Both the position numbers and the translations under genes were made by a program. The notes under the pieces are model-generated. The model had not been told where the DNA came from. It did not search any database and saw nothing but the letters and a program-made list of their open reading frames with translations. From assembly GCF_027579695.1 (NCBI RefSeq), contig NC_083572.1, positions 19,609,421-19,673,420 on the forward strand: a stretch of 64,000 bases of DNA, written 5' to 3'. This document shows positions 1 through 61,486 of this stretch, piece by piece. Origin of the DNA: Neoarius graeffei (taxonomy: Eukaryota > Chordata > Actinopteri > Siluriformes > Ariidae). How positions within the stretch are numbered: the first letter of the stretch is position 1; each line of letters starts with the position of its first letter.

Positions 1-342
1 TACGAAACGCTCAGAAGATCCACAAAGTCAAAAACAAAAGCCACAAAGTCCAAAAGAAAGCAAAAATACAAAGAACACAAGGACATGGATGAGGAAATCG
101 GAACAGAGGTAACTGGAGCTTAAACATAACAGCACAAAGACTCCATGACAAGAGGACTGAACTCAGGGGGTATAAATACACAAGATAAATTGGAAACAGG
201 TGACACTAATGAAAACAGGCAATCAACATCAACACAAAACACAGGACACAGTGGCGACCTCTAGAGGCCAAAACAACCATAGACAAAAAACAGGAAATAA
301 CAGCGGCCTCTAGAGGCCAAAACAGTCCCAGTCCTAACAGGA
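1..342 (-). repeat. 3' LTR of Gypsy-1 (partial)
   Basis: Near-identical to about 2765-3108. In element orientation it begins TGTTAGGACTGG. It contains two copies of a short module, CCTCTAGAGGCC within a longer repeat, at about 266-277 and 308-319, and a TATTTATA box (complement of 171-180). Its 3' end lies left of the window. Confidence 0.85.
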
Positions 343-351
343 CCCCCCCCT

Positions 352-1098
352 CTAGGAGCGTCTCCTGACGTTCCCAGGGCGATCCGGATGGGCCGAATGG
401 AAGTCCCGACACAGTTCTTTATCTAAGACGTCCCGAGTGGGAACCCAGCAGCGCTCCTCAGGACCATAGCCCTCCCAGTCCACAAGATATTGCAGCCCGC
501 CGCGGACCCGGCGGGAGTCAAGCAGGCGATGCACGGTGAACACAGTCTGACCCTGGAAGATGCGGGGGGGGGGTTTCCTAGGGGCAGGGGCATACGTGGA
601 CGTCAGTACGGGCCGCAACAGGGAAACATGGAATGTGGGGTTGATCCTCAGAGTCCGGGGCAACTGGAGCCGGTAGGAGACAGGGTTCACCCTGCGCACC
701 ACCTTGAAGGGGCCAATGTAGCGAGGAGCAAGCTTGCGGTTCTCCACCCGCAGCGGAAGGTCCTTAGTGGACAGCCAAACCCACTGCCCAGGGTGGAAAG
801 TGTGGGCAGGTCTTCTATGGCGGTTGGCCTGAGTCTGGTTGGTTCTGGAGGTCTGGATGAGGGTCTTCCTGACCTTGCTCCAGGTCTTGCGACACCGTCT
901 CACATATTGGTTGACCGAGGGCACCCCCGCATCCTCCTCCTGGTCTGGGAACAGAGGTGGCTGGAACCCGAATTGGCACTGGAATGGTGACAGCTTGGTG
1001 GCCGATGACTGCAGGGTGTTGTGGGTGTACTCACCCCAGGAGATGGAGACCGGGATGTAGACTCCTTGGCCAGGGAGTTCAGGAGAGAGGGTAGGCCC
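352..1098 (-). pseudogene. Integrase C-terminus plus chromodomain (Gypsy-1)
   Basis: The reading frame encodes the last part of a Ty3/gypsy integrase. Beginning at about 1080 it carries the post-catalytic region with EYTHNTL and SSATKLSPF, then the GPF module (APRYIGPFKVV) and the TFHVSLLRP segment, and ends in a chromodomain around [19 protein letters not shown]. Chromodomains on integrase define chromoviruses and are thought to direct integration to particular chromatin. The catalytic D,D-35-E core and zinc finger are missing. The frame is fused almost directly to the end of gag, so this is the product of one internal deletion and not a free-standing gene. The longer frame to 1197 is only run-on through gag sequence. 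Confidence 0.85.
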
Positions 1099-1100
1099 TG

Positions 1101-2096
1101 TCACAACCCTCCCTCGGCTGGACGGAGCGGTCCTTTTCCCGAGAGCTCGGGACATGATGCTCGGAAATGGCCAGGCTTGCCACAGTAGATGCAGCACTTG
1201 TCCCTCCTTCTGCGCTCCCTCTCAGCTGTGGAGAGACAAGTACGGCCAACTTGCATGGGCTCTGGACAGTCACTGGAGGAGGTAGACGGGCTCCAGGTTG
1301 AGGCAGTGAGGCCGGGGAAGCTCAGGACTCGGCAGCACTCTCTAATCCTGTTGTACAGATGAGTAGAATGTGAGATGAGAGTTTTGAGGTCACTTGGGCA
1401 TCCAATAGAGGCCAAGCCTTCCTTGATGGGGTCAGACAGACCATGGTGGAAGGCTGACACCAGGGCAGTCTCATTCCATCCACTTACTGCTGCGAGCATC
1501 CGGAACGAGATGGTGTAATCTGTGACGATTCCTCCTTGCCAGATGGACATGAGCTTTCTGGCTGCGTCGGTACTGATGTCCGCCTGGTCGAAGACCCGAA
1601 GCATCTCTTCAGTAAACAGTTCAAAATCAGAGCACTCGGGTCCCCGTCTCTGCCAGATAGCTGTTGCCCAAGCTCGTGCCTTACCAGCTAACAAGGTTAT
1701 CACAAAGGCGATCTTGCGGTGATCCGTAGTGTAGGTTGTAGGCTGGAGCTCAAAGGTGAGTTGGCACTGGGTAAGGAACTCCCGGCTCTCACCGTGCTTG
1801 CCGTCATACCTCTGTGGTGCAGGAAGGCTGGGTTCGCGAGTTGAAGGAGACAGTGTGGCGGGAGGCACTGGAGCAGGAGCTGGATCAGGATGAGGAGATG
1901 CAGGCAGAGGTGTCAGCTGTGCCAGGGTTTTCCCAATTTGCTGAAGCAGTTCCTCGTGGCGAGCAAGGGCCTCACGTTGGCTGGTGAGCGTTCGTCCATG
2001 AGCGTCCATGGTCGCTCCAAAGCGTGTCAAAGCTGCCATAATTCCCTGAAGGTTGGCCGGGTAGACAGTTGAAGCAGCCTCTGCTGAGTCGGTCAT
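1101..2096 (-). CDS. Gag polyprotein of Gypsy-1 (chromovirus)
   Basis: A 331-residue open frame starting at ATG 2096. The N-terminal third is coiled-coil-like and proline-rich. Residues from about 95 to 230 match the retrotransposon gag (capsid-like) region, with FLTQCQLTFELQP, KIAFVITLLAGKARAWA and FDQAD. Near the C-terminus there is a CCHC zinc knuckle, CCIYCGKPGHFRASC, for nucleic-acid binding. Gag packages element RNA in cytoplasmic particles. The frame is intact, unusually for this window, and ends just past the knuckle, where the pol frame of a full element would follow; here the integrase tail follows instead. An intact gag on a pol-less element fits a parasite that still supplies or co-opts Gag, but loss of the rest could simply be recent. 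Confidence 0.88.
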   Translation of the reverse strand: MTDSAEAASTVYPANLQGIMAALTRFGATMDAHGRTLTSQREALARHEELLQQIGKTLAQLTPLPASPHPDPAPAPVPPATLSPSTREPSLPAPQRYDGKHGESREFLTQCQLTFELQPTTYTTDHRKIAFVITLLAGKARAWATAIWQRRGPECSDFELFTEEMLRVFDQADISTDAARKLMSIWQGGIVTDYTISFRMLAAVSGWNETALVSAFHHGLSDPIKEGLASIGCPSDLKTLISHSTHLYNRIRECCRVLSFPGLTASTWSPSTSSSDCPEPMQVGRTCLSTAERERRRRDKCCIYCGKPGHFRASCPELSGKGPLRPAEGGL

Positions 2097-2124
2097 GATG
2101 GAATCTTTCTGTTAGGGTTTTGCT

Positions 2125-2190
2125 GGGATTCGAACCTGGTTCACTGGTGTGATAATCCAGCAAACCCCCACGAGGCCACCAGGAGGATGA
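2125..2190 (-). other. tRNA-like leader segment of Gypsy-1, with candidate primer-binding site
   Basis: Between the 5' LTR and gag. In element orientation there is a TGGCCTCGTGGG stretch resembling a pol III A box and, about 42 nt on, GGTTCGAATCC, a perfect B box, at tRNA-like spacing. The first bases after the LTR include TGGTGGCCTCG, which could serve as the primer-binding site. The T-stem does not pair well, so this is tRNA-derived at best and not a working tRNA gene. The LTR/leader boundary is inferred. Confidence 0.4.
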
Positions 2191-3108
2191 CTCAAATGCA
2201 GAGGCGTGAGGTGGAAGTAGAAAAAGTATCAAAAGGTTTATTTACAATATTTACAAAAAATCCAAAAAGTATAATCCAAAACGCTCAGAAGATCTCATCT
2301 CATCTCATCTCATTATCTCTAGCCGCTTTATCCTGTTCTACAGGGTCGCAGGCAAGCTGGAGCCTATCCCAGCTGACTACGGGCGAAAGGCGGGGTACAC
2401 CCTGGACAAGTCGCCAGGTCATCACAGGGCTGACACATAGACACAGACAACCATTCACACTCACATTCACACCTACGGTCAATTTAGAGTCACCAGTTAA
2501 CCTAACCTGCATGTCTTTGGACTGTGGGGGAAACCGGAGCACCCGGAGGAAACCCACGCGGACACGGGGAGAACATGCAAACTCCACACAGAAAGGCCCT
2601 CGCCAGCCCCGGGGCTCGAACCCAGGACCTTCTTGCTGTGAGGCGACAGCGCTAACCACTACACCACCGTGCCGCCCCGCTCAGAAGATCTAAGGGAAAA
2701 AATAAAAAATCCAAAAGTTCAAAGTCAATACAAAAGCCAAAAAAAAACTAGAAAAGAAAAGGCAAAAATACCAAACGCTCAGAAGATCCACAAAGTCAAA
2801 AACAAAATCCACAAAGTCCAAAAGAAAGCAAAAATACAAAGAACACAAGGACATGGACGAGGAAATCGGAACAGAGGTAACTGGAGCTTAAACATAACTG
2901 CACAAAGACTCCGTGATAAGAGGACTGAACTCAGGGGGTATAAATACACAAGATAAATTGGAAACGGGTGACACTAATGAAAACAGGCAATCAACACCAA
3001 CACAAAACACAGGACACAGTGGCGACCTCTAGAGGCCAAAACAACCATAGACAAAAAACAGGAAATAACAGCGGCCTCTAGAGGCCAAAACAGTCCCAGT
3101 CCTAACAG
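2191..3108 (-). repeat. 5' LTR of Gypsy-1, interrupted by a SINE
   Basis: Shares 2765-3108 with the left LTR and extends left to about 2191, where the leader begins. It includes a polyadenylation-like AATAAA (complement at about 2238-2243). A Mermaid-like SINE is inserted at 2296-2677 between copies of CGCTCAGAAGATCT. A second CGCTCAGAAGATC motif at about 2775-2787 is part of the LTR's own internal repetition. Confidence 0.8.
2296..2677 (-). mobile_element. Mermaid-like tRNA-derived SINE in the Gypsy-1 LTR
   Basis: Complete minus-strand copy. The tRNA-like head (reading GTGGTGTAGTGGTTAGCGC, then B box GGTTCGAGCCC) lies at the right end and the GATGA-repeat tail at the left. It is flanked by a perfect 14-base target-site duplication, CGCTCAGAAGATCT, at 2282-2295 and 2678-2691. 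Confidence 0.95.
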
Positions 3109-4344
3109 TTTCCACTGTTATGCTGATGACACACAGTTGTATGTTTCTGCAAAACCTGATGAGAGACACCAGCTTAATAGAATTGAGGAATGTGTGAAGG
3201 ACATTAGACACTAGATGCTTATTAACTTCCTTCTGCTTAACTCTGACAAGACTGAAGTACTTGTACTAGGACCACATGCAGCTAGAAGTAAGTTTTCTGA
3301 TTACACAGTAACTCTGGATGGCCTTTCTGTTTCTTCACGTGCAGCAGTAAAAGACCTCGGAGTGATTATTGACCCCAGTCTCATCTCATCTCATTATCTC
3401 TAGCCGCTTTATCCTGTTCTACAGAGTCGCAGGCAAGCTGGAGCCTATCCCAGCTGACTACAGGCGAAAGGCGGGATATACCCTGGACAAGTCGCCAGGT
3501 CATCACAGGGCTGACACATAGACACAGACAACCATTCACACTCATACCTACGGTCAATTTAGAGTCACCAGTTAACCTAACCTGCATGTCTTTAGACCGT
3601 GGGGGAAACCGGAGCACCCGGAGGAAACCCACGTGGACACACGGAGAACATGCAAACTCCACATAGAAAGGCCCTCGCTGGCCACGGGGATCGAATCCGG
3701 ACCTTCTTGCTGTGAGGTGACAGTGCTAACCACTACACCACCATGCCGCCCTTGACACCAGTCTTTCATTCAAAACTAACATTGATAACATTACCCGGAT
3801 AGCTTTCTTTCATCTCAGAAATATTGCTAAGATAAGAAATTTAATGTCACTACACGATGCGGAAAAACTAGTTCATGCTTTCATTACCTCTAGGTTGGAT
3901 TATTGTAATGCCTTACTGTCTGAATGTTCCAATAAGTGCATAAACAAGCTCCAGTTAGTTCAAAATGCAGCAGCAAGAGTCCTTACTAGAACTAGAAAAT
4001 ATGACCACATCACCCCTGTCTTATCCACACTGCATTGGCTCCCAATCAAATTTCGTATTGATTATAAAATACTACTATTGACCTTTAAAGCACTGAATGG
4101 TCTCGCACCACAATACCTGAGTGAACTTCTGGTCCTCTATGACCCGCCATGCCTACTTAGATCAATAGGTGCAGGCTATCTCCTGGTACCTCGTATAGTG
4201 AAGTCTACATCAGGGGGCAGAGCCTTTTCTTACAGAGCCCCACAGTTATGGAACAGCCTTCCAAGTAATGTTCGGGAATCAGACACAGTCTCAGCATTTA
4301 AGTCTAGGCTGAAAACATATCTGTTTAGTCAAGCCTTTTGTTAA
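3109..4344 (+). pseudogene. Reverse transcriptase C-terminal half, L2-like LINE copy A
   Basis: Encodes the catalytic YADD region ([10 protein letters not shown] at about 3117-3146), then after frameshifts the thumb region [18 protein letters not shown]. After a SINE insertion it continues through LVHAFITSRLDYCNALL, LQLVQNAAARVL, ITPVLSTLHWLPI and the terminal KTYLFSQAFC at 4344. These are hallmarks of the L2/CR1 group of fish LINEs, whose RT copies element RNA at nicked chromosomal DNA. At least one frameshift near 3180-3215 and the SINE insertion at 3382 make it non-functional. The family call beyond the CR1/L2 group is inference. Confidence 0.88.
3382..3751 (-). mobile_element. Mermaid-like SINE inside LINE copy A
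   Basis: Full-length minus-strand copy flanked by TTGACCCCAGTCT (3369-3381) and TTGACACCAGTCT (3752-3764), a 13-base duplication with one difference. The uninterrupted site is present in LINE copy B at about 19810. Confidence 0.95.
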
Positions 4345-8072: not shown

Positions 8073-8889
8073 TGTCAGGGACCAGACAGGAGAGGAGATC
8101 AAATGCACTCAAACCACAGTTTATTAATAATAGGGGAAAAGGGAGTTGGGAGAATGTGTGTGTGTGTGAAGTTCAGTGGCAGGAGGACTGAGAGGTAGGG
8201 ATGGCTGGTGGGAGCGTGGTGGTGATGTCTGGGGTCTCCCATCCAAGTACTGACCAGACCCAACCCTGCTTAGCTTCTGAGATCAAATGGAATCAGGCGT
8301 TGTCAGAGAGGTGTGGTTGTAGGCTGACAGCACTTGGGTTTCAGGCAGTCTCCCAGCAGTAGTCCCTCAGTAGGCTGGAGTTAGGGAGCAGGCTGGAACA
8401 CAGAGTCACAGATCAGATAGCAAGATAGGGGACAGAAATGCAGGGTCAGGTTACCGGGGCTGGAGAGTAGGGCTCCAGGCAGGGCTGCTCACACTGGGCT
8501 GATGGAGAGGCAGGCAAGCAGCAGGGCTGGGCAGGCTGGAGATCAGGCGAAGGTACAGGAGAGGCAGGCAAGAGGCAGAGTCGACAGGACAGAAGGCAGA
8601 TCAGGTTACCGGGGCTGGAGAGTAGACAGAGTCAGACTGAACAGAATATCATCAGGAGTCAGAGTAGTAGGAACACAGAGTAGGTTATCATGCTAGAAGT
8701 TGCAGATGATCTGACACAGAAGCTTGGGAGGACTGCAACTTAAATACACATGGGGGGGGGAAGCAGGTGATCGGCAACAGCCAATGACAGCCACTGGAAG
8801 TTAATAAGAGGAAGTGAGTGCGGGCGTGGCCGGTAATGCTGAGTGGAGATGTTACCTGAAGAGAGAAGCCCACAGGTAGGACCATGACA
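8073..8889 (-). repeat. 3' LTR of Gypsy-2
   Basis: Begins TGTCAGGGACCAG and ends GACCATGACA on the plus strand. It differs from the right LTR by scattered substitutions and small indels, such as a longer TG run at 8157-8168, an extra segment near 8208-8225 and a longer G-run at 8752-8760. Together these indicate an insertion that is not very recent. It contains the 5S-derived segment at 8233-8324. Confidence 0.93.
8233..8324 (-). other. 5S rRNA-derived segment in the 3' LTR of Gypsy-2
   Basis: Read on the minus strand, this 92-nt stretch aligns without gaps to nucleotides 1 to about 92 of vertebrate 5S rRNA. It starts GCCTAC and ends GGATGGGAGACC. The internal control region of 5S genes is well kept, including AAGCTAAGCAGGGTT (A box), the intermediate element and CAGTACTTGGATGGGAGACC (C box region). 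The 3' quarter of 5S rRNA is absent. It is not an independent 5S gene: the same segment occupies the same place in the other LTR. Confidence 0.9.
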
Positions 8890-8979
8890 GAACCCCCCCC
8901 CCCTCAAGGGACGGCTCCAGAAGTCCCTAGCCACAGATCCACCAAGACGGGCGGGAGGAGGGGGAATACCGGTGGAGAG

Positions 8980-10242
8980 TCAGAATTCCTCTGACCGGTC
9001 CGTGTCCAAGGCCTCAGGATCTGGTTCAGAATCGGACTCGGGGACAGTAGCGGTTGGCGCATCGTCATTCCGACAAGGGCCCTTTGGTCGACCCCTCAGG
9101 TTGGCCGGCTGGTCCGGATGCAGGCGATGAAAGGTGCTGATGAGGGTACGGTCTAAGATTCTCCCAGCAGGAACCCACATCATCTCCTCAGGACCATAGC
9201 CCTCCCAATCCACCAGGTATTGGAGGCCCCTGCCCCTGTGCCGTGACTTTAGCAGTTGCCGGACGGAGTAGACCAGGCCACCATCGATGAGACGAGGAGG
9301 AGGAGGAGAAGGTGCAGCTGGGACCAGCGGGCTCTCGTGCACTGGCTTAATCTTTGAGACGTGGAAGGTGGGGTGCACTCTCATAGACTTGGGCAGTCGG
9401 AGCCGGACAGCAGACTGGCTGATTATCCTCTGGATCGGGAATGGTCCGATGAACTGAGGTGCCAGCTTACGAGACTCCACCTGGAGGGGCAGATCCTTGG
9501 CTGACAACCACACCTTCTGGCCCACCCAGTAGGTGGGCACAGGCGTCCTCTGCCGGTTGGCTCCAATGGAGTAGCTGGTGACTGACTTGAGGAGTGCAGC
9601 GCGGGCTTGAGACCAGGTGCGGCGGCATTGGCGTGCATAGGTGAGGGCAGACGGGCAGGTGACCTCTCCCTCCTGGCTGGGGAACAGGGGTGGTTGGTAG
9701 CCATACACACAGTGGAATGGGGACAGTCCAGTGGCTGAGCTGGTGAGGGAGTTGTGGGAGTATTCCACCCACAGCAGGTGCTCACACCAGGCCCTAGGGT
9801 TGCGTGACACCATGCACCGAAGTGCCTTCTCCAACTCCTGGTTAGTCCGCTCTGACTGGCCGTTGGACTGGGGTCGGAATCCGGAGGTGAGGCTGGCGGT
9901 GGCCCCGAGTAGGTGACAGAATTCCTTCCAGAATGAGGAGATGAATTGCGGCCGCCGGTCTGAAACAATGTCCCTGGGCAGCCCATGGATGCGGAAGACC
10001 TGCTGCAGGACGATCTGGGCGGTCTCTTTGGCCGACGGTAGTTTAGGGAGGGGAACAAAGTGTGCCAGCTTACTAAAGCAGTCCACGATGGTGAGTATGA
10101 CAGTCATCCCGTTAGAAGGGGGCAGACCCGTAACAAAATCCAGGGAAATATGGGACCAGGGTCGCATTGGCACGGGCAGAGGCTGGAGCAAACCGGCAGG
10201 AGGCTGGCTGGAGGACTTATTCTGATTACAGGTAGGGCAGGC
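8980..10242 (-). pseudogene. Integrase and chromodomain of Gypsy-2 (pol C-terminal part)
   Basis: Continues in frame from the RNase H segment after a TGA at 10243-10245, beginning with the zinc-finger cysteines (ACPTCNQNK). The catalytic core shows [11 protein letters not shown] (first D), [11 protein letters not shown] (second D) and [14 protein letters not shown] (catalytic E). Then come [12 protein letters not shown] (GPY/F module), [13 protein letters not shown] and a chromodomain, [19 protein letters not shown]. Integrase joins the linear cDNA to chromosomal DNA, and the chromodomain probably guides targeting. The frame from 10191 to 8980 is open and all catalytic residues are present. 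The start is not a true start; it is part of pol. Confidence 0.92.
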
Positions 10243-10245
10243 TCA

Positions 10246-11370
10246 GACAAAGTCTCGCACATCCCTGCTCATAGAAGACCACCAGAACCGTTGGGCGAGC
10301 AGGTGGTAGGTGCGAATGGAACCAGGTTGGCAGGCTAGACGGGAGTCGTGTCCCCATTGTATAACCTGGGATTGCAGGTCTTCAGGAACAAAGAGGAGAC
10401 TTGCAGGGCATGCACTGGGGCTGGGTTGGTCACGGAGGGCTTCCCACACTCGTTCTTCGATGTCCCAGGTCAGAGCAGCAACGATACAGGGGTCAGGTAG
10501 GATGGGAGCCGGATCCTTGGAGGGGGCATCATCCTTCTGGAACTGGCGGGAGAGTGCGTCAGGCTTGATGTTGCGAGATCCAGGCCGGTATGAAAGGGTG
10601 AAATTGAATCTGGTGAAAAAGAGAGCCCAGCGGGCCTGTCTGGGGTTGAGTCGTTTGGCGGTGCAGATGTATTCCAGATTCTTATGGTCTGTCCAGACCA
10701 GGAATGGGACTACGCACCCCTCCAGCCAGTGACGCCATTCCTCCAGGGCGAGCTTGACCACCAGCAGTTCCCGGTTGCCTATGTCGTAATTGCATTCGGC
10801 CGGTGATAGCCGGCGGGAGAAGAACGCACAGGGGTGGAGTTTGTTGTCATCCGCTGACCTCTGTGAGAGCACTGCCCCAACTCCCACATCCGAGGCGTCC
10901 ACCTCAACGATGAATTGCCGCTCCGCATCTGGCATCTGGAGGACGGGAGCAGTGGTGAACCGAGCCTTGAGGGTGGCAAAGGCTTCGTTGGCAGCCGGAG
11001 TCCAGGTGAAGGGCTGTTTGGTGCTGGTCAAGGTGGTGAGGGGTGACGCAACGGTGCTGTAATTACGAATGAATTTCCTGTAGAAATTTGCGAAGCCCAG
11101 GAACTGCTGAAGCTTCTTCCTGCTCTCTGGTACTGGCCATGAAGTCACTGCTGAGACTTTGGCAGGGTCCATCTGGATGCTTCCCTCTGCCACGATGTAC
11201 CCCAGGAACCCCACAGACTTGGGATGAAACTCACACTTCTCTGCCTTGACGAAGAGGGAGTTTTCAAGGAGACGACAGAGCACTTGCTGGACATGCTGGG
11301 TGTGTTCGGACAGGGTCTTTGAGAAGATCAGGATGTCGTCGAGGAAAACGAACACGAACTTGTTCAACAT
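10246..11370 (-). pseudogene. Reverse transcriptase C-terminus and RNase H of Gypsy-2
   Basis: The frame follows an in-frame TGA (11371-11373) that splits the RT domain between fingers and palm. It begins with the catalytic box [12 protein letters not shown] and continues through [15 protein letters not shown] and the connection domain [16 protein letters not shown]. RNase H follows ([45 protein letters not shown]) and then the integrase N-terminal H2C2 region ([18 protein letters not shown]). It ends at TGA 10243-10245. Both terminating codons could be CGA-to-TGA changes, since arginine is common at these sites in relatives. Confidence 0.92.
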
Positions 11371-11373
11371 ATC

Positions 11374-12840
11374 TCACAGGACATCATTCACCAGAGCCTG
11401 GAATACCGCTGGCGCGTTGGTAAGGCCAAACGGCATCACCCGGTATTCATAGTGACCGGTGGGGGTGTTGAACGCGGTCTTCCACTCGTCTCCCTCCCTT
11501 ATCTGAACCAGGTGGTAGGCATTCCGGAGATCGAGTTTGGTGAAGACCGTGGCTCCCTGGAGCAGCTCGAAGGCGGAGGTAAGCAGTGGGATTGGGTATC
11601 GGTTCTTGACGGTGATGTCGTTGAGACACCTGTAATCGATGCAGGGGCGCAGGGATCCATCCTTCTTTCCCACGAAGAAGAACCCAGCGCCGGCGGGAGA
11701 AGAGGATGGATGGATGAGGCCGGCAGCCAGAGAGTCACTGATGTAGGCCTCCATCGCCTTCCTTTCCGGGGTGGACAGAGAGTAGAGACGGCCCTTGGGT
11801 GGTGCAGTGCCTGGGAGGAGATCAATGGCGCAGTCGTAGGGCCGGTGAGGGGGCAAGTAAGTGGCCTTGGCTTTGCTGAATACCTCCCGAAGGCTGTGAT
11901 AACACACTGGGACATTAGTGAGGTCGGGGGCAGAGCTGGCAGGTGGAGTACGAGAGGTTAGAGTGGCGGCTCGTAAGCAGGTCCGGTGGCAATCCTTGCC
12001 CCATTCTCTTATCGCTCCAGTGGCCCAGTCGAGGTGAGGACTGTGCTGGCGGAGCCATGGATAGCCCAGGATGAGAGATTGGCCGGGGGAACGGAGCAGG
12101 TGAAACTGGATGGTTTCGTGATGGTTACCAGACAGAGTCATCGGGACAGGGGCAGTGAGGCGGGTGACGGTGCCAAGGAGATGGCCATCCAGTGCCCTGG
12201 CTGGAATGGGAGAGGATAAATGATGGCTTTGCAGACCCAACTGGTGCGCAAGCTTGGTGTCCATGATGTTAGCCTCGGCGCCAGAGTCAACCAGGGTGTG
12301 GGTGGAATCCGACAGACGAAGGCAAACTTGGAGCATAGGTTTCTGGCTGGTGGAGGATTGGAGGATCATTGAACCCAGCCGGGCCCCTCCTATGTCCGGC
12401 GAGCTCAGGCTTCTCTGTGCGCTGATGACCGACTGAGTCTGGCGGGCCCTCTCTTGTCGACGGGTCTGGACCCGGTGGTCAATGCGGACGGCCAGGGTGA
12501 TGGCCTCATTGAGTGTCGACGGTTGTTCGTACGAGACCAATTCGTCCTTCATGTAGTCGGCCAGGCTGTGCAGAAAGGCGTCCACCAGCGCCTGCATGTT
12601 CCACTTGCTGCGCCGGGCCAAGGTCCGGAAATCGATCGAGTAGTCAGCCACTGTACGTCTGCCTTGGCGAATACTCATCAGTCCTCTGGATGCCTCTACT
12701 GATGACGAGCCCAGGTCGAAGACCTTAATCATCTTCGCTGCAAACAGGGAGAAGGAGGCACACGCCGGTGTCCGGCATTCATACTCAGCAGTCCCCCACA
12801 GGCGGGCGCGGCCAGTCAGATGAGTGATGATGAAGGCCAC
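11374..12840 (-). pseudogene. Gag C-terminus, protease and RT N-terminus of Gypsy-2
   Basis: Contains the rest of the capsid-like region ([43 protein letters not shown]), an arginine-rich stretch and an aspartic protease with active site [12 protein letters not shown]. It then enters [33 protein letters not shown] and [20 protein letters not shown]. No CCHC knuckle is visible between gag and protease, which is also true of some sushi-type chromoviruses. The frame is offset from the gag N-terminus by a small indel around 12840-12855. Confidence 0.9.
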
Positions 12841-13202
12841 CTTCGCTGCAGGTCGAACAGCAACCAGCAGCTGGTCAGGAAAGCACGGACTTGGGAGGGG
12901 TCACTGTCAAAACACTCTGGACTGCCGACCTTGGGTTCCGGGGCATCGAGTGCAGCAGGAGCACCTCCCAGAGCTGGCAAGTCAGCGGTGGGTATGACAG
13001 GGGCTGATGCAACGAGGGGCGGCGGTGGTTGACTCGGAGGTGCAGGGGGTGCTAGGGCGGTGAGCAGCTGGAGTGCTTGGTCCAGTCGTTGTTGCTGATG
13101 ACCAAGCTGGATCAGGGCTGCAACGTCGGCAGACATCTGACTGACATCTCCTTCGGTGCACTGCAGCCGGTCTAGGGCAGAGGGTTCGGGCGCTGACTCC
13201 AT
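12816..13202 (-). pseudogene. Gag N-terminus of Gypsy-2
   Basis: Begins at ATG 13202, only about 18 bases from the 5' LTR, so the primer-binding site must lie in 13203-13220. It encodes an acidic, glutamine-rich coiled-coil-like segment, a proline-rich linker and the beginning of the capsid region ([16 protein letters not shown]). It then runs out of frame into the next segment at about 12850. Confidence 0.85.
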
Positions 13203-13220
13203 GTCTTGGTCAGATCATTC

Positions 13221-14019
13221 TGTCAGGGACCAGACAGGAGAGGAGATCAAATGCACTCAAACCACAGTTTATTAATAACAGGGGAAAAGGGAGTTGGGAG
13301 AATGTGTGTGTGAGAAGTTCAGTGGCAGGAGGACTGAGAGGCAGGGATGGCTGGTGACGTCTGGGGTCTCCCATCCAAGTACTGACCAGACCCAACCCTG
13401 CTTAGCTTCTGAGATCAGACAGACTCAGGCGTTGTCAGAGAGGTGTGGCTGTAAGCTGACAACACTTGGGTTTCAGGCAGTCTCCCAGCAGTAGTCCCTC
13501 AGTAGGCTGGAGTTAGGGAGCAGGCTGGAACACAGAGTCACAGATCAGATAGCAAGATAGGGGACAGAAATGCAGGGTCAGGTTATCGGGGCTGGAGAGT
13601 AGGGCTCCAGGCAGGGCTGCTCACACTGGGCTGATGGAGAGGCAGGCAAGCAGCAGGGCTGGGCAGGCTGGAGATCAGGCGAAGGTACAGGAGAGGCAGG
13701 CAAGAGGCAGAGTCAACAGGACAGAAGGCAGATCAGGTTACCGGGGCTGGAGAGTAGACAGAGTCAGACGGAACAGAATATCATCAGGAGTCAGAGTAGT
13801 AGGAACACAGAGCAGGTTATCACGCTGGAAGTTGCAGACGATCTGACACAGAAGCTTGGGAGGACTGCAGGTTAAATACACACAGGGGGGAAGCAGGTGA
13901 TCGGCAACAGCCAATGACAGCCACTGGAAGTTAATAAGAGGAAGTGAGTGCGGGCGTGGCCGGTAATGCTGAGTGGAGATGTTACCTGAAGAGAGAAGCC
14001 CACAGGTAGGACCATGACA
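13221..14019 (-). repeat. 5' LTR of Gypsy-2
   Basis: Direct repeat of 8073-8889, containing the 5S-derived segment at 13365-13456. In element orientation it carries an AATAAA-type signal (complement of TTTATTAATA at about 13268). No clear TATA box was found, leaving open whether the 5S-like internal promoter contributes to transcription. Confidence 0.93.
13365..13456 (-). other. 5S rRNA-derived segment in the 5' LTR of Gypsy-2
   Basis: Same 92-nt segment as at 8233-8324, on the minus strand, beginning GCTTACAGCCACACC and ending GGATGGGAGACC. This copy is slightly closer to 5S rRNA in places (GCTTAC start; CTGATCTCAGAAGC). The two LTR copies differ at a handful of sites, as do the surrounding LTRs, so the segment was present in the LTR before this insertion. 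Confidence 0.9.
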
Positions 14020-25449: not shown

Positions 25450-25757
25450 TGTGGCAGCGGGGGCGTGGCCAAGCGTTGGTCTGTGACCGGAGGGCGGAGT
25501 CGGGGAAGGTAAGTGGCAGAATCACTGCACCTGAGGTTGATTAATGTGTTTGTGTGTCTTCCCCAGTGACCACACCCTATTTAAGGAAGAGAGCGAGAGC
25601 AGAGCGGACTCTCTCCCCAACCAGATGACGGGAGTGTGTGTGTGTATGTGTGTACATGTGTATAGTTAAAGCTGAAAAGCTAAAATAAACGGGTTTTGTG
25701 AACTCAGTTCTGGCCTGCTGTCCTTCTGTGCTCCACCCACCCATCTGAACTGTTACA
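25450..25757 (+). repeat. 5' LTR of Gmr1-like copy 1
   Basis: Starts TGTGGCAGCGGGGGC and ends CTGAACTGTTACA. It matches 31676-32001 closely; the main difference is a much longer TG run in the right LTR (31860-31892). It contains a CCTATTTAAGG TATA-like box at about 25568 and an AATAAA at 25684-25689. Confidence 0.95.
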
Positions 25758-25758
25758 G

Positions 25759-25776
25759 TGGTGCCAAAACCCGGGA
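25759..25776 (+). promoter_or_regulatory. Primer-binding site of Gmr1-like copy 1
   Basis: TGGTGCCAAAACCCGGGA lies one base after the 5' LTR and begins with TGG, complementary to the CCA end of a tRNA. The second copy has TGGTGCCAAAACTTGGGA at the equivalent minus-strand place (about 45040-45057). The specific tRNA was not determined. Confidence 0.75.
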
Positions 25777-25804
25777 GCTTGGAGCGCCGAAGCAGAACAG
25801 CCCC

Positions 25805-26677
25805 ATGGAGTCCTCCCCTTTCGCCGAGCTGGTCCACGCCCTTGCCACGGCCCAGCAAAGCCAGCACCAGGCATTAGTCGCCCTCCGGAAGGAACAGGAA
25901 CAGCGGTTCGAGGCCCTGGTGCTGGCTCAGCAGGAAGAGCGACAGGCGTTCCGACACCTCCTCGCGTCGGCGGGGTCCACTGCCGCGGGGCCGTCCCCCT
26001 TCACCCTGACGAAGATGGGCCCGCAGGATGACCCCGAGGCCTTCCTCACATTCTTTGAGCAGGTAGCAGAGACCTCGGGGTGGCCGATGGAACAGCGCAC
26101 GGCGCGCCTCCTCCCCCTGCTAATGGGAGAGGCGCAGCTGGCCGCACTACAGCTCCCCGCCGACCGCTAGCTGGCCTATGCGGACCTTCGCCGGGCCGTC
26201 CTCCAGCGTGTGGAGCGCACCCCCAAGCAACAATGGCAGCGTTTCCACGCTTTGCGCTTGGAGGAAGTTGGCCGGCTGTTCATGTTTGGCCAGCAACTCC
26301 GGGACGCCTGCGGGCGGTGGTTGAGGGCCGACAACCGCGACTCCAAGGGGATCATCGACCAGGTGGCACTGGAGCAGTTCATCACGCGTCTACCAGCCAG
26401 AGCTGCAGAGTGGGTCCAGTGCCACCGCCCGGCGTTGCTGGATCAGGCAATCGAGCTGGCGGAGGACCATTTGGCAGCTGTCCCAACGGCAGGACAGCAG
26501 ACAACCTCTTCTCCCCTCTCCTCTCTCTCTCCCTCTCCTCCTGTGTCTCATCCTCGCCCTGTTCCCCCACCGCGGAGGTGGGGGCCAGCCCCACCCCAGC
26601 CGGCCTGTCGCACCTGCGGTGCCCTCCCGTTTTTCCCTTCTGTGTCTGTCTCTCCCCCCCCCCCCCCCCTCAGGTGA
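25805..26677 (+). pseudogene. Gag with SCAN-like domain, Gmr1-like copy 1
   Basis: Starts at ATG 25805 (MESSPFAELVHAL). It has an N-terminal coiled coil rich in Q and E, then the matrix/capsid region (FTLTKMGPQDDPEAFLTFF). A TAG at 26168-26170 interrupts, and the same frame continues with an LEEVGRL...QQLRDAC...RWL and EQFITRLP...AEWVQCH pattern closely resembling the SCAN domain, which is thought to derive from the capsid of a Gmr1-like element. After a proline/serine-rich stretch the frame ends past a C16 run (26654-26669). The zinc knuckle continues in another frame. Confidence 0.88.
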
Positions 26678-27780
26678 GTGAGCCCCAGAGCACCAGTACA
26701 GAGAGGAAGCCCGGGCTGGTTTGCTGGCGCTGCGGGGAGCCGGGCCACCTCCAACAGCAGTGCTCGGCAATGGAGGTGGGCGTGGTGGTTCGGATCCCCG
26801 ACACACCAGGAGCCGCCCTCAATCGGGCCGGAGTGTATCGCATACCGGTGAGTATCCAAGGGGATACACATCAGGCGTTGGTGGATTCTGGTTGTAATCA
26901 GACCTCAGTCCACCAAAACCTGGTGCAAGACGAGGCATTGGGGGGAGCACAATTGGTGAAGGTGTTGTGTGTGCATGGGGATGTTCACAGCTACCCTTTA
27001 GTGTCGGTCCACATTTTTTTTCGAGGGGAAAAATTTATAGTGAAGGTGGCGGTTAATCCTCGCCTTACCCACTCGATAATTTTGGGGACGGATTGGCCAG
27101 GATTTGGGGAATTAATGAGTCACCTAGTGAAGAGTGGGTCCTGCCATAGTTTAATAAGGGGAGGTCCCGGTGTCGCATTGGCGGGAGCAGCTGTCACAGA
27201 GCCGTCTACATCAGCTCCGCGTCAGAGTGAGTAGCCGCCGGCTCCTCCTCTCTCTATTGGGGAATCCCTCGCGGATTTCCCATTAGAGCAGTCGCGAGAC
27301 GAGACTCTGAGGCATGCATTTGACCAAGTGAGAGTAATTGATGGTCAAATGCTCCAGCCAAATGCCACCCCGCCTTTCCCCTACTTCGCAATTATGAAGG
27401 ATAGATTATACCGAGTGACGCAGGACACTCAAACTAAAGAGCAAGTCACACAGCTGTTGATTCTGAAGAGCCGCCGGGAATTGGTATTCCAGGCGGCTCA
27501 CTTTAATCCCATGGCTGGACACTTAGGGCAGGATAAAACACTAGCCCGAATAATGGCCCGGTTCTATTGGCCAGGGATTCGCGGCGATGTCCGTAGGTGG
27601 TGTACGGCGTGCCGCGAATGCCAGTTAGTAAATCCAGTGGCCATTCCAAAAGCGCCTTTGCACCCTCTCCCATTAATCGAGACCCCGTTCGAAAGAATTG
27701 GGATGGATCTCGTCGGGCCATTAGATCGGTCAACACGAGGGTACCGCTTTATATTAGTTCTGGTGGACTATGCAATGTGA
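26670..27780 (+). pseudogene. Zinc knuckle, protease and integrase N-terminus, Gmr1-like copy 1
   Basis: From the C-run the second frame gives VCWRCGEPGHLQQQC, a CCHC nucleocapsid knuckle. An aspartic protease follows, with YRIPVSIQGDTHQALVDSG (active site DSG) and HSIILGTDWPGF. After a TAG at 27232-27234 the frame continues to the integrase zinc domain: FNPMAGHLGQDKTLARI, then RRWCTACRECQ (H2C2). The first catalytic motif is GMDLVGPLDRS. A TGA at 27778-27780 follows DYAM, probably a CGA-to-TGA change. No RT lies between protease and integrase. Confidence 0.9.
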
Positions 27781-28772
27781 TACCCGGAAGCGGTGCCTCT
27801 TCGCAATATCTCAGCACGCAGTATTGCGGAGGCACTCTTCCGCGTTATCTCCCGAGTTGGAATCCCGAAAGAGATTCTGACTGATCAAGGCACCTCGTTT
27901 ATGTCACGTACACTAAATGAACTGTATAGGTTGTTGGGTATTAAGCTGATCTGCACCAGTGTGTATCACCCACAAACGGACGGTTTAGTTGAACAGTTCA
28001 ATCGCACCCTCAAGAATATAATTAAAAAATTCGTAAGTGAGGACGCACATAATTGGGATAAGTGGCTCGAACCCTTGTTGTTTTCAGTGCGAGAGGTCCC
28101 CCAAGCCTCCATGGGGTTCTCCCCGTTTGAATTGTTATACGGGCATAAGCCGCGCGGCATTCTAGATGTGCTGCGGGAAAATTGGGAGGAGGGACCTTCA
28201 CCAAGTAAAAATGAAATCCAATACTTTATTGACCTGCGCGCAAAACTCCACACACTCGCCCACCTAACCCAGAAGAATTTGCGGCAGGCCCAAGAACGAC
28301 AAACCCGCCTGTACGACAAGGGTACGCACCTCAGGGAGTTCGCACCGGGAGATAAAGTACTCGTACTGTTGCCCACGTCGAGCTCCAAATTAGTCGCCAA
28401 GTGGCAAGGACCCTTTGAGGTCACACAGCAAGTCGGGGACGTTGACTATGAGGTGAGGCGAACGGACAGGGGTGGGGCGTTACAGGTTTACCACCTCAAT
28501 CTGCTCAAACTCTGGAACAAGGAGGTCCCCGTGGCGTTGGTGTCGTTGGTTCCGGAGAAGGCGGAGCTGGGGCCGGAGGTTCAAAAGGGAACCTTGGCAT
28601 CATGTACCTCTCTGGTCCCCTGTGGAGACCACCTCTCCCCGACCCAACTCGCGGAGGTTGCCCAGTTGCAGACCGAGTTTTCAGATGTATTCTCGCCCCT
28701 GCCCGGCCGCACCAACCTCATAGAGCACCACATTGAGATGCTCCCGGGGGTGGTAGTGCGTAGCCGCCCTTA
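27781..28772 (+). pseudogene. Integrase core and C-terminus, start of RT linker, Gmr1-like copy 1
   Basis: Continues the D,D-35-E core: ILTDQGTSFMS (second D) and HPQTDGLVEQFNRTLK (catalytic E). It then has the GPF module AKWQGPFEVTQQVGD and YHLNLLKLW. No chromodomain follows. Instead the frame runs into the N-terminal extension of RT (FSDVFSPLPGRTNLIEHHIE), showing directly that integrase is encoded before RT. The frame is cut at 28772 by the Tc1 element and resumes at 30384 with LPEHNKKVV. Confidence 0.92.
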
Positions 28773-30381
28773 CAGTGGTGCTTGAAAGTTTGTGAACCCT
28801 TTAGAATTTTCTATATTTCTGCATAAATATGACCTAAAACATCATCAGATTTTCACACAAGTCCTAAAAGTAGATAAAGAGAACCCAGTTAAACAAATGA
28901 GACAAAAATATTATACTTGGTTATTTATTTATTGAGGAAAATGATCCAATATTGCATATCTGTGAGTGGCAAAAGTATGTGAACCTTTGCTTTCAGTATC
29001 TGGTGTGACCCCCTTGTGCAGCAATAACTGCAACTAAACGTTTCCGGTAACTGTTGATCAGTCCTGCACACCGGCTTGGAGGAATTTTAGCCCATTCCTC
29101 CGTACAGAACAGCTTCAACTCTGGGATGTTGGTGGGTTTCCTCACATGAACTGCTCGCTTCAGGTCCTTCCACAACATTTCGATTGGATTAAGGTCAGGA
29201 TTTTGACTTGGCCATTCCAAAACATTAACTTTATTCTTCTTTAACCATTCTTTGTTAGAACGACTTGTGTGCTTAGGGTCGTTGTCTTGCTGCATGACCC
29301 ATCTTCTCTTGAGATTCAGTTCATGAACAGATGGCCTGACATTTTTCTTTAGAATTCGCTGGTATAATTCAGAATTCATTGTTCCATCAATGATGGCAAG
29401 CCGTCCTGGTCCAGATGCAGCAAAACAGGCCCAAACCATGATACTACCACCACCATCTTTCACAGATGGGATAAGGTTCTTATCCTGGAATGCACGGTTT
29501 TCCTTTCTCCAAACATAACGCTTCTCATTTAAACCAAAAAGGTCTATTTTGGTCTCATCCATCCCAAAACATTTTTCCAATAGCCTTCTGGCTTGTCCAC
29601 ATGATCTTTAGCAAACTGCAGATGAGCAGCAATGTTCTTTTTGGAGAGCAGTGGCTTACTCCTTGCAACCCTGCCATGCACACCATTGTTGTTCAGTGTT
29701 CTCCTGATGGTGGACTCAGGAACATTAACATTAGCCAATGTGAGAGAGGCCTTCAGTTGCTTAGAAGTTCCCCTAGGGTCCTTTGTGACCTCGCCAACTA
29801 TTACACGCCTTGCTCTTGGGATGATCTTTGTTGGTCAACCAATCCTGAGGACGGTAACAATGGTCTTGAATTTCCTCCATTTGTATACAATCTGTCTGAC
29901 TGTGGATTGGTGGAGTCCAAACTCTTTAGAGATGGTTTTGTAACCTTTTCCAGCCTGATGAGCATCAACAACACTTTTTCTGAGGTCCTCAGAAATCTCC
30001 TTTGTTCATGCCATGATACACTTCTACAAACATGTGTTGTGAAGATCAGACTTTGATAGATCCCTGTTCTTTAAATAAAACAGGGTGCCCACTCACACCT
30101 GATTGTCATCCCATTGATTGAAAACACCTGACTCTAATTTCACCTTCAAATTAACTGCAAATCCTAGAGGTTCACATAGTTTTGCCACTCACAGACATGT
30201 AATATTGGATCATTTTCCTCAATAAATAAATGACCAAGTATAATATTTTTGTCTCATTTGTTTAACTGGGTTCTCTTTATCTACTTTTAGGACTTGTGTG
30301 AAAATCTGATGATGTTTTAGGTCATATTTATGCGGAAATATAGAAAATTCTAAAGGGTTCACAAACTTTCAAGCACCACTG
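28773..30381 (-). mobile_element. Tc1/mariner element in Gmr1-like copy 1
   Basis: Inserted at a TA (28771-28772 and 30382-30383). It has inverted repeats of about 215 bp beginning CAGTGGTGCTTGAAAG. The two repeats differ at only a few positions. A related element lies at 59128-60936. Confidence 0.96.
28993..30011 (-). pseudogene. Tc1 transposase (broken)
   Basis: Minus strand from ATG near 30011. N-terminal helix-turn-helix is visible as KTISKEFGLHQSTVRQI, followed by ANVNVPESTIRRTLNNN (second HTH). After a frameshift near 29575 the DDE core follows: MVWACFAASGPGRLAIIDG (first D), VMQQDNDPKHTS (second D) and WPSQNPDLNPIEMLWK (E), with a normal end GGHTRY. Stops occur at the second codon region and within the linker (after LRIG). 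The catalytic acidic residues remain but the gene cannot give a full transposase. Confidence 0.9.
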
Positions 30382-30383
30382 TA

Positions 30384-31640
30384 CAGGCTACCCGAACACA
30401 ACAAAAAAGTAGTTCGGGAAGAACTCGAAGCCATGCTCGAAATGGGCATCATCGAGGAGTCCCACAGTGACTGGAGCAGCCCGGTGGTCTTGGCACCCAA
30501 GGCCGACGGGTCGGTCCGGTTCTGTGTAGACTATAGGAAAGTCAACGCGGTGTCTAAATTCGACGCGTACCCAATGCCTCATATTCATGAGTTGCTTGAT
30601 CGACTAGGCACAGCTTGCTTTTACTCGACACTGGATTTAACAAAGGGCTATTGGCAGATCCCCTTTGACTCCATTATCCTGAGAAAAAATGGCCTTTTCC
30701 ACACCGTTCGGCTTACACCAGTTTGTCACACTTCCTTTTGGGCTGTTTGGGGTGCCCGCTACGTTTCAGTGGCTGATGGATAGGGTCCTCCGCCCCCACA
30801 CCACCTATGCGGCCGCCTACCTCGACGATATCATTATCTATAGTAATGACTGGCCGAGGCACCTCCAACATCTGAGGGCCGTCCTTCGGTCACTGAGGCG
30901 AGCGGGTCTCACAGCCAACCCAAAGAAGCATGCGATTGGGCGGGTGGAAGTACGGTATCTGGGCTTCCACTTGGGCAACGGGCAGGTGCGTCCCCAAATT
31001 AACAAGACAGCGGCAATTGCGGCCTGCCTGAGGCCCAAGACCAAAAAGGGGGTGAGACAGTTCTTGGGGCTGGCTGGCTATTATTGTAGGTTTATACCTA
31101 ACTATTCGGACATCACCAGCCCGCTGACTGATCTGACTAAAAAGGGGGCACCAGATCCGGTCCAGTGGACGGAGCAATGCCAGCGGGCTTTTTCTGAGGT
31201 AAAGGCTGCACTGTGTGGGGGGCCACTTTTACACTCCCCTGACTTTTCTCTCCCCTTTATGTTACAGACAGATGCGTCGGACAGAGGGCTGGGAGCTGTT
31301 TTGTCCCAGGAGGTGGAGGGGGAGGACCACCCAGTGTTGTACATCAGTAGGAAGCTGTCGGTGCGTGAGGGGCGCTACAGCACCATTGAAAAGGAGTGCC
31401 TAGCGATCAAGTGGGCGGTCCTCGCCCTCCATTACTACCTGCTGGGATGCCCTTTCACCCTCTGTTTGGACCACACGCCCCTCCAGTGGCTCCACCACAT
31501 GAAGGATGCCAACGCGTGGATCACCCGTTGGTATCTGGCACTCCAACCCTTCAACTTCAAGGTGATCCACAGGCCGGGGGCGCTGATGGCCGTGGTGGAC
31601 TTTCTCTCCCGTCAAGGGGGGGGGAGTCGGCTGCAGGCCG
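30384..31640 (+). pseudogene. Reverse transcriptase and RNase H, Gmr1-like copy 1
   Basis: Fingers: MGIIEESHSDWSSPVVLAPK and FCVDYRKVNAVSKFD. Palm: FYSTLDLTKGYWQIP. A frameshift near 30670 follows, then FVTLPFGLFGVPATFQ and catalytic AAYLDDIIIYS at about 30818. Connection: FLGLAGYYCRFIPNYSDI. RNase H: FMLQTDASDRGLGAVLSQ, YSTIEKECLAIKWAV and LDHTPLQWLHHM, with a VIHRPGALMAVVDFLSR end. The 3' LTR and polypurine tract (GGGAGGTGGGGGTA) follow directly with no integrase, confirming the inverted pol order. Protein frame runs on into the LTR to 31738. Confidence 0.93.
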
Positions 31641-31675
31641 GACGGCCGCCTGGCCTGAGTCGGGAGGTGGGGGTA

Positions 31676-31857
31676 TGTGGCAGCGGGGGCATGGCCAAGC
31701 GTCGGTCTGTGACCGGAGGGTGGAGTCGGGGAAGGTAAGTAGCAGAATCACTGCACCTGAGGTTGATTAATGTGTTTGTGTGTCTTCCCCAGTCACCGCG
31801 CCCTATTTAAGGAAGAGGGTGAGAGCAGAGCGGGCTCTCTTCCCAACCAGACGACGG

Positions 31858-31898
<41 letters not shown>

Positions 31899-32001
31899 CA
31901 TGTGTATAGTTAAAGCTGAAAAGCTAAAATAAACGGGTTTTGCGAACTCAGTTCTGGCCTGCCATCCTTCTGTGCTCCACCCACCCATCCAAACTGCTAC
32001 A
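31676..32001 (+). repeat. 3' LTR of Gmr1-like copy 1
   Basis: Direct repeat of 25450-25757. Contains a (TG)n microsatellite at 31860-31892 that is shorter in the 5' LTR. The LTR sequences are otherwise very similar, implying a fairly recent insertion relative to its host L1. Confidence 0.95.
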
Positions 32002-40583: not shown

Positions 40584-40898
40584 TGTAGCAAATCCCTGAT
40601 GTGGGTGGAGTACAGAAGCACGGCAGGTGGGAACTGAAGTTCGTGCAAACTTTTGCTTTTAAAGATATATATAGCTTTTCAGCTCACTCACTCCCACATG
40701 CACACACACATGCATTCTGGTCAGGAGTCAGCTCTTCTCTGCTTTTCCCCCTCCTTTTATGCTCCATCCCTACAAAACAAACACACACACATACACACCC
40801 ACATTAACTGACACCAGGTGTAATGACTTAGCCACTTACCTTCCCTGACCCCGCCCTCCATTCACAAACTGCCGCTTGGCCACGCCCCTGTTGCAACA
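40584..40898 (-). repeat. 3' LTR of Gmr1-like copy 2
   Basis: Plus strand TGTAGCAAATCCC to CCCTGTTGCAACA. Pairs with 45059-45402 and is related to the LTRs of copy 1 (shared GCCAAGCGGCAG-like and GGTGGAGTACAGAAG blocks). Adjacent polypurine tract is the complement of 40899-40908. Confidence 0.92.
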
Positions 40899-42250: not shown

Positions 42251-42833
42251 AATATCCCTTTATTAGATCCAGTGTCGAATAAAAGCGAGCAGTGCCTAAC
42301 TGATCAAGCAACTCATCAATGCAAGGCATTGGGTATCTGTCAAATTTAAACACCATGTTGACCTTTCTATAGTCCACACAAAACTGGACTGACCCATCAG
42401 TCTTGGGAACCAGGACCACTGGGCTGCTCCAGTCACTGTGGGACTCCTCGATTATGCCCATTTCGAGCATGGCCTTGAGGTCATCCTGAACCACCTTTTT
42501 CTTGTGTTCAGGCAAGTGGTAAGGGTGGCTACACACTACCACCCCCAGGGGCATTTCGATGTGGTGTTCTATGAGGTGGGTATGACCGGGAAGGGTCGAG
42601 AACATGTCGGAAAATTCCTTTTGCAACTTGGCCACCTCCATGCATTGGGCCGGTGAGAGGTGGTCTCCACAAGGGACCGGAGTGGTTCGAGATGTTATCT
42701 TTTTTACCTCCAGCCCCAGCTCCGCCTTCTCTGGGACTACCGACACCAATGCTACAGGGACCCCCTCATTCCAGCATTTTAAAAGGTTGAGGTGGTAGAT
42801 TTGCAATGCCCCAGTCCTATCTATTTGCCTCAC
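42251..42833 (-). pseudogene. RT N-terminal half, Gmr1-like copy 2
   Basis: Encodes the integrase/RT linker (VYHLNLLKCWNEGVPVALVS pattern), FSDMFSTLPGHTHLIEHHIE, LEMGIIEESHSDWSSPVVLV, FCVDYRKVNMVFKFDRYP and FYSTLDLIKGY. The frame is open over 194 residues. It connects upstream with integrase (to 43583) and downstream with the YLDD box after a frameshift near 42250. Confidence 0.9.
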
Positions 42834-43871: not shown

Positions 43872-43874
43872 TCA

Positions 43875-45014: not shown

Positions 45015-45058
45015 GGGGTGGTTCCCTTCCGTACTTGCGTCCCAAGTTTTGGCACCAC

Positions 45059-45247
45059 TATAGCGAATCCCTGATGTGGGTGGAGTACAGAAGCACGGCA
45101 GGCGAGAACTGAAGTTCATGCAAACTTTTATTTTTAAAGATATATATAGCCTTTCAGCTCACTCACTCCCACACGCGCGCACACATGCATTCTGGTCAAG
45201 AGTCAGCTCTTCTCTGCTTTCCCCTTCCTTTTATGCTCCATCCCTGC

Positions 45248-45306
<59 letters not shown>

Positions 45307-45402
45307 ACTAATTGACACCAGGTATAATGACTTAGCCACTTACCTTCTCTGACCCCGCCCTCCATTCACAAACTACCGCTTGGCCATGCCCCCATTGCCA
45401 CA
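45059..45402 (-). repeat. 5' LTR of Gmr1-like copy 2
   Basis: Direct repeat of 40584-40898 with an expanded (AC)n tract at 45248-45308. The end abutting the primer-binding site reads TATAGC in place of TGTAGC, a G-to-A change. Confidence 0.9.
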
Positions 45403-53089: not shown

Positions 53090-53100
53090 GAGTTCAGTCA

Positions 53101-61470: not shown

Positions 61471-61486
61471 GCTTAATGAATTATAG

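Follow-up and report, generated by a model that had tools for sequence, protein, structure and literature searches.

A circularly permuted 5S rRNA segment in both long terminal repeats of a fish chromovirus

Structure of the element

A 64,000-nucleotide stretch of Neoarius graeffei DNA (NC_083572.1, positions 19,609,421 to 19,673,420; the whole stretch is referred to here as the window, and positions are counted from its first letter) contains, on its minus strand, a Ty3/gypsy chromovirus that carries a segment of 5S rRNA sequence in each of its two long terminal repeats (LTRs). This segment is circularly permuted and not truncated. The parts of the element were located as follows.

8073..14019, minus strand: whole LTR retrotransposon, Ty3/gypsy chromovirus (LTR pair, TG..CA ends, and gag, protease, reverse transcriptase [RT], RNase H, integrase and chromo domains)
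13221..14019, minus strand: 5' LTR, 799 bp (LTR pair, TG...CA ends)
8073..8889, minus strand: 3' LTR, 817 bp (LTR pair, TG...CA ends)
8980..13202, minus strand: coding region with gag, protease, RT, RNase H, integrase (H2C2, rve, SH3_Tf2-1) and chromodomain (domain matches)
13208..13220, minus strand: self-priming primer-binding site (PBS), GAATGATCTGACC, next to the 5' LTR (pairing test)
8893..8905, minus strand: polypurine tract (read from sequence)

Both LTRs start with TGTCATGG and finish with CCTGACA, and they differ by 22 substitutions (18 transitions and 4 transversions) over 799 aligned bases. A clean target-site duplication (TSD) was absent from the window copy, which had an overlapping GTTT only; TSDs of 5 to 6 bp were present in several family copies (e.g., GTATGA, TAATAT, CCATGC, TACTG, CTTTTG and AATATC). 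Separate scans of the open reading frame (ORF) pieces detected gag, protease, RT, RNase H and integrase in chromovirus order, with a chromodomain after the integrase (rve, SH3_Tf2-1 and then Chromo, the last at 32.6 bits against a cut-off of 25.1). As the coding domains are split over several ORFs, the frame is interrupted and the window copy is not intact. The closest named integrases came from ray-finned fish (Fundulus, 72%; Coilia, 74%; Larimichthys, 70%), with an unnamed protein at 79%, and an integrase search found no relative in viral contigs. Domains and priming layout together point to a self-priming, Tf1/sushi-like fish chromovirus.

Circular permutation of the 5S insert

A cmscan search of the window detected two matches to RF00001, for which the gathering cut-off is 38 bits, at 8225-8317 (minus strand; 48.8 bits, E value of 4.2e-07) and 13349-13456 (minus strand; 48.5 bits, E value of 5e-07). 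No other Rfam match in the 64 kb reached gathering level. A first-pass annotation of this DNA had described a chromovirus with coding domains whose LTRs carried the first ~92 nucleotides (nt) of 5S rRNA at 8233-8324 and 13365-13456, followed by a degraded 3' end. The gag-to-chromodomain matches agree with the first of these points, and the RF00001 scores are not at background level. The two stretches do correspond to nt 1-92 of 5S; what had been missed was nt 84-118 directly upstream, so the 3' part is not a degraded end and instead stands before the 5' end. The insert was resolved into the following parts.

13365..13487, minus strand: circularly permuted 5S insert of the 5' LTR (nt 84-118, then nt 1-92), ~123 nt (cmscan and dimer alignment; coordinates read from sequence)
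13455..13487, minus strand: 5S nt 84-118, the 3' part, in front, 5' LTR (dimer alignment; weak alone, its score being reached by 2/200 shuffles)
13365..13456, minus strand: 5S nt 1-92 with box A, intermediate element (IE) and most of box C, 5' LTR (cmscan; box limits as we take them to be)
8233..8355, minus strand: circularly permuted 5S insert of the 3' LTR, ~123 nt (cmscan and dimer alignment; coordinates read from sequence)
8323..8355, minus strand: 5S nt 84-118, the 3' part, in front, 3' LTR (dimer alignment; score reached by 0/200 shuffles)
8233..8324, minus strand: 5S nt 1-92, 3' LTR (cmscan and LTR alignment)

Box C, which we take to end at nt 97, is cut by the insert at nt 92.

Permutation was assessed by aligning LTRs to two host 5S genes placed head to tail (the dimer alignment) and comparing the scores with those of shuffled sequences. 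The window 3' LTR (W3) and 5' LTR (W5) scored 150.5 and 157, respectively, against best scores of 27.0 and 27.5 among 20 shuffles. Permuted order was found in W3, W5 and copies L010 and L027, and the highest score, 188, was that of copy L104. The permuted unit consists of nt 84-118, without nt 97-98, placed directly before nt 1-92, the two parts being joined at the RNA's own ends. The 9-mer of 5S nt 84-92 is present at both edges of the insert; at the left edge its final base is T in most copies of one of the two LTR lineages, GC and AC/TC, that are compared below, namely, the GC lineage.

Host 5S genes start with GCTT and end with AAGCTTTT in 8/8 genes examined. The joint was scored in 66 copies with a simple motif (two bases followed by GC(T/C)T(A/G)C, after TGT). 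It carried one GC(T/C)T-like block in 37 copies and had diverged in the other 29; a doubled GCTT block was present in 0/66. When the 3' part was considered alone (nt 93-118), its score was reached by none of 200 shuffles in 45 copies and by at least one in 21. It was clear in well-kept copies (33.5 in L104 and 37.5 in L106, against shuffle maxima of 20 and 19.5), and in L058, L059 and L073 more than half of the shuffles reached the score.

Neither LTR holds a complete 5S in native order, the scores of 48.5 to 48.8 bits comparing with 98.5 to 117.6 bits for 46 of the 47 host matches listed. Nearest neighbours among these 47 matches lie at least about 780 bases apart, and hence no spacerless 5S dimer occurs among them. 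Host 5S genes at 39218343-39294172 of contig C21 are largely on alternating strands with gaps of ~0.8 and 3.5 kb, an arrangement that is not plainly head to tail.

Distribution of the insert within the family

Using the 3' LTR as a query, 40 of 1,667 first-look candidates were scored, the window's own 5' LTR not being among these 40. All began at query position 1 to 3, and all but one, ending at 806, extended to position 817. The close LTRs comprised 29 fetched loci besides the window's own, plus W5 and W3, and nt 1-92 was present in 31/31, with short internal gaps in some. A pattern for the TATA box, which lies away from the 5S sequence, had 488 matches in the genome and 0 for the reversed control; 70 of these were fetched, taken from the start of the contig order (C1 to C3) and not at random. 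Of these further LTRs, 65 had 5S, permuted in 63, and both 5S parts were present in permuted order in 62/70. L065 had a permuted 5S with an internal deletion. An alignment rule had labelled 64/70 as permuted; L058 and L059 passed it only through a short end of the 3' part, giving the count of 62, and were retained in the 66-copy set for the divergence, folding and 3'-part analyses. These surveys show the insert to be a family-wide trait, in agreement with the earlier suggestion that other copies of the LTR might carry it.

The remaining LTRs were of several kinds. L107 is joined to other sequence before the insert place, and L061 and L100 lack exactly the insert. In L049 and L050 the genome reads N inside the 5S insert. 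Rfam gathering score was passed by 18/20 close loci and by 9/20 mixed loci, 2 of the latter 20 being without the insert; automatic annotation could therefore call false 5S genes in such LTRs. Pattern scans with a 44-nt piece of the window 5S gave 0 matches in viral contigs and 0 in genome contigs.

Transcription signals and position of the insert

The following signals were identified in the LTRs.

13872..13878 (3' LTR: 8740-8746), minus strand: TATTTAA, TATA-like box, 5' LTR (motif)
13838..13847, minus strand: GTCAGATCGT, predicted start of the RNA and self-primer, lying ~30 nt downstream of TATTTAA (motif, PBS pairing)
13268..13273 (3' LTR: 8120-8125), minus strand: AATAAA poly(A) signal, downstream of the 5S insert (motif)
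13285..13288, minus strand: TTTT downstream of the 5S, a possible RNA polymerase III (pol III) stop that AC/TC copies lack (motif)

In the close copies, TATTTAA was found at LTR position ~142 in 30/31, the start motif TCAGATC ~32 nt after it in 28/31 and AATAAA at position ~757 in 27/31. The PBS paired best at the TATA+30 place in 14/14 copies having a PBS, with a longest run of 7 to 10 nt; in W5, L024 and L035 another place tied in the number of matches, with a shorter run, and one PBS-bearing copy, L015, lacked an exact TATTTAA. A self-priming layout is known for Tf1 and sushi, and the arrangement found here corresponds to it, with the RNA polymerase II (pol II) start predicted at the GTCAGATC place.

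Because the best PBS-pairing sequence lies ~30 nt downstream of the TATA box, genomic RNA should start ~390 nt upstream of 5S +1 in the window copy, and an earlier proposal that the 5S serves as the promoter of the element is thereby left unsupported. With the TATA box and predicted start upstream and AATAAA downstream, the insert would lie in the repeated (R) region, so that 5S sequence would be carried at both ends of the element RNA. The distance from TATA box to insert ranged from ~150 to 390 nt among subfamilies (L078 and L083 compared with L052 and L101), indicating that large length changes are tolerated in R.

LTRs without the insert

At the empty sites, L061 reads CTGGGAACCCTCAGA and L100 reads CTGGGAAACCTCAGA, one 9-mer-like block replacing the 9-mer, the insert and the second 9-mer. 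A FastTree phylogeny was built from 68 LTRs with the insert removed (the 64 labelled by the alignment rule plus L061, L100, W3 and W5). L061 and L100 grouped with L105 and L106 with a support of 0.96, and supports above that group, up to the root of the AC/TC side, were 0.73, 0.96, 1.0, 0.94, 0.93, 0.77 and 0.74. The insert occurs both on the AC/TC side and in the GC lineage, between which the LTRs differ by about 28%. L100, a solo LTR, is flanked by TCATG repeats, a clean TSD. L061 is followed by PBS-like sequence, and no 3' LTR match was found for it in the stretch fetched. The TSD of L100 and the PBS-like sequence after L061 indicate that copies without 5S exist at two separate sites, and the clean TSD of L100 that the insert is not essential to the spread of a copy.

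Since L061 and L100 are nested among insert-bearing LTRs in the tree, the insert appears to have been lost from them later, between 9-bp direct repeats, which is the simpler reading. That they represent the pre-insertion state is disfavoured by the tree, which was midpoint rooted without an outgroup. The first-pass annotation had held that family members without the segment would speak for a chance late insertion; two such members do exist, but their nested position and exact loss mean that they do not make the 5S an accident of that kind.

Origin and role of the insert

These features best fit template switching by RT on 5S rRNA during the copying of R. We consider it probable that a single old capture of cellular 5S rRNA by this route, in the ancestor of the sampled 5S-bearing LTR lineages, gave rise to the insert and that it has been kept mainly as a passenger, most likely in the 5' and 3' untranslated ends of the pol II transcript. 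RT copying R would have switched at TGGGA(A/G)ACC to the same 9-mer in 5S rRNA (nt 84-92) and copied on to the 5S 5' end. From there, using the GCUU shared by both 5S termini, it would have jumped to the 3' end of a 5S molecule, copied nt 118 to 84 and returned to R at the same 9-mer, leaving one whole 5S unit, circularly permuted, in R. Since R is copied into both LTRs, later copies would inherit the insert at both ends. It is the joint and the 9-mer edges that suggest reverse transcription of 5S rRNA itself as the route of capture. LINE-1/5S rRNA chimeras, in which RT also joins 5S to a retroelement, are reported to have breaks commonly at 5S nt 46 and 90, in loops C and D (PMC13174262). These chimeras are separate one-off insertions, typically antisense, whereas the fish insert is in sense orientation and is a heritable part of a multiplying family.

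Several observations weigh against such a capture. The path is intricate, with two switches at one 9-mer and an end-to-end jump, and is reconstructed from a single old event. In L058 and L059, nt 1-92 are present but no 3' part is recognisable, and 19 of the 21 copies in which the 3' part alone was not significant belong to the GC lineage; copies with a weak 3' part count a little against the proposed path. No pre-insertion relative was found, both empty copies lying inside the insert-bearing clade of the midpoint-rooted tree; such an LTR would be expected to read TGGGAAACC without the insert and to fall outside that clade. The copies without 5S may also have been moved in trans by 5S-bearing relatives. 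Finally, lineage-shared changes from the host 5S numbered 0 in nt 48-92 and six in nt 3-47 (nt 7, 18, 23, 30, 35 and 47, of which 7, 30 and 47 are at CpG sites), a skew that promoter selection would also be expected to produce. Changes common to both lineages include C18T, G23C, T35C, G107A and the missing nt 97-98.

Promoter selection would apply if the element had captured a pol III promoter in the manner of Cassandra, the 5S internal control region driving or co-driving its transcription. The insert includes the 5S start, box A, IE and box C as far as nt 92, non-CpG difference from host 5S is 6 to 8% in nt 48-92 compared with 16 to 25% in nt 3-47, and TTTT follows the 5S in 31/31 close copies. 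In the 66-copy set, however, TTTT (counted before AATAAA or within 120 nt) was present in 28/37 GC copies and 0/29 AC/TC copies, and in the window's lineage it precedes the PBS. The self-primer, ~390 nt upstream in the window copy, would be missing from RNA started at 5S +1, and LTRs free of the insert occur at two sites. Divergence between AC and GC copies at non-CpG sites was 16.4% in the left flank, 21.7% in nt 3-47, 12.1% in nt 48-92, 4.9% in nt 80-92 and 13.2% in the right flank; box A and IE vary, and the box C value is not below that of adjoining non-5S LTR. We therefore regard pol III promoter capture as unlikely. Promoter selection on box C was considered as a separate candidate and dropped, the lowest-divergence windows among 231 extending from box C into the non-5S flank.

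A lesser role is compatible with the capture by template switching. The readable promoter boxes may still bind TFIIIA or yield short pol III transcripts in the TTTT lineage, and some pol III or TFIIIA use of the insert is possible. In a more elaborate and doubtful version, the insert would form a second, TFIIIA-dependent pol III unit inside the pol II-transcribed R of an autonomous-type vertebrate LTR element, its permuted joint recording an RT jump on 5S rRNA, and in the TTTT lineage an R RNA of ~180 nt per LTR would tune the element or its neighbourhood.

Insertion of a 5S-headed short interspersed element (SINE) of the SINE3 type, or of a 5S pseudogene, into the LTR with later rearrangement would parallel the origin suggested for Cassandra and for Ajax. 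Several fish are reported to have SINEs with 5S features (PMC5437419), and the greater divergence of the 5' half than of the promoter part is a pattern that Kojima takes as a sign of a SINE3 past in Ajax (PMC10886601). The insert is, however, one 5S unit; neither the body nor the LINE-like tail that accompany a SINE3 5S head is present, and on either side it directly adjoins LTR sequence that the empty-site copies also have. The joint falls at the ends of the 5S RNA, and an insertion, a duplication and two deletions would have to hit the same 9-mer at both edges by chance. This route appears rather improbable.

Copying from a circular or end-to-end ligated 5S RNA, or recombination of a small 5S DNA circle at the 9-mer, would give a nearly identical product, but ligation of untrimmed ...AAGCUU to GCUUAC would double the GCTT, and 0 copies have the doubled block; we give such templates little credence. 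Mimicry of 5S RNA, also suggested earlier, is very improbable; in the version considered here, R would fold like 5S and bind TFIIIA or ribosomal protein L5 to aid export or translation. Helices II (93% paired in AC and 85% in GC copies) and III (94% and 92%) are still paired, but at a level near that of shuffled columns, helix III of the GC lineage being a weak exception (8/300 shuffles reach it). Helix I is paired to 80% in AC and 56% in GC copies.

Relation to known systems

Cassandra, a plant terminal-repeat retrotransposon in miniature (TRIM), resembles the fish element in having 5S-derived sequence with promoter boxes in both LTRs, here nt 1-92. Cassandra is described as 565 to 860 bp long and non-coding, with its own RNA made from the 5S promoter (PMC10886601; see also PMC7215508). 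The fish element, in contrast, is ~5.9 kb long and codes for gag and pol domains; its 5S is permuted, and a TATA box and a self-primer lie upstream of it. Ajax, a nemertean TRIM, is likewise an animal element whose LTR has a 5S promoter region; it differs in its length of 421 to 434 bp, its tRNA-Leu primer and its possession of the box A to box C part only (PMC10886601). Ajax is assigned to TRIMp3, a group defined by Kojima (2024), who argues that autonomous partners of TRIMp3 elements require a pol II promoter and probably do not have a long stretch of LTR in common with them (PMC10886601). In the fish element, the upstream TATA box and self-primer argue against a TRIMp3-type pol III template RNA. 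SINE3 and other 5S-headed fish SINEs are similar in that their 5S-derived part is best kept over the promoter boxes; the fish insert differs in lacking a SINE body, in its permutation and in its location inside an LTR. The chromodomain, SH3_Tf2-1 domain and self-priming layout are shared with Tf1/sushi chromoviruses, and we know of no 5S in R of that group.

No 5S-bearing LTR in a coding vertebrate element was found among the listed titles and abstracts of open-licence papers, although one may be catalogued in Repbase. LTR 5S sequences have been described from the non-coding TRIMs Cassandra and Ajax, for which the proposed sources and routes of capture include SINE3 insertion (PMC10886601) and transposition, recombination or extrachromosomal circular DNA (PMC10853983). 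The present element shows a 5S control region and a TATA promoter coexisting in the LTRs of an element that has coding domains, a coexistence that bears on the possible origin of pol III TRIMs.

Other repeats in the window

A second, shortened chromovirus occupies positions 1-3108 on the minus strand, with a gag domain in 1104-2111 and SH3_Tf2-1 and chromodomain in 355-1221. The terminal repeats of this second element (1-340 and 2769-3108) are 97.6% alike and contain TATTTATA; cmscan gave no RF00001 match in them. A gypsy-like element at 25450-32001 has integrase pieces (27781-28782) before RT/RNase H pieces (30683-31735), an order that we take to be that of Gmr1-type elements, and has a diverged inverted copy at 40586-45402. 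It is interrupted at 28771-30384 by a 1.6-kb element whose 216-bp inverted ends are 98% alike and which occurs again at 59330-60938 (94%). A repeat of ~380 bp is present at 2291-2677, 3379-3752 and 61104-61480 and as three tandem copies at 53100-54258.

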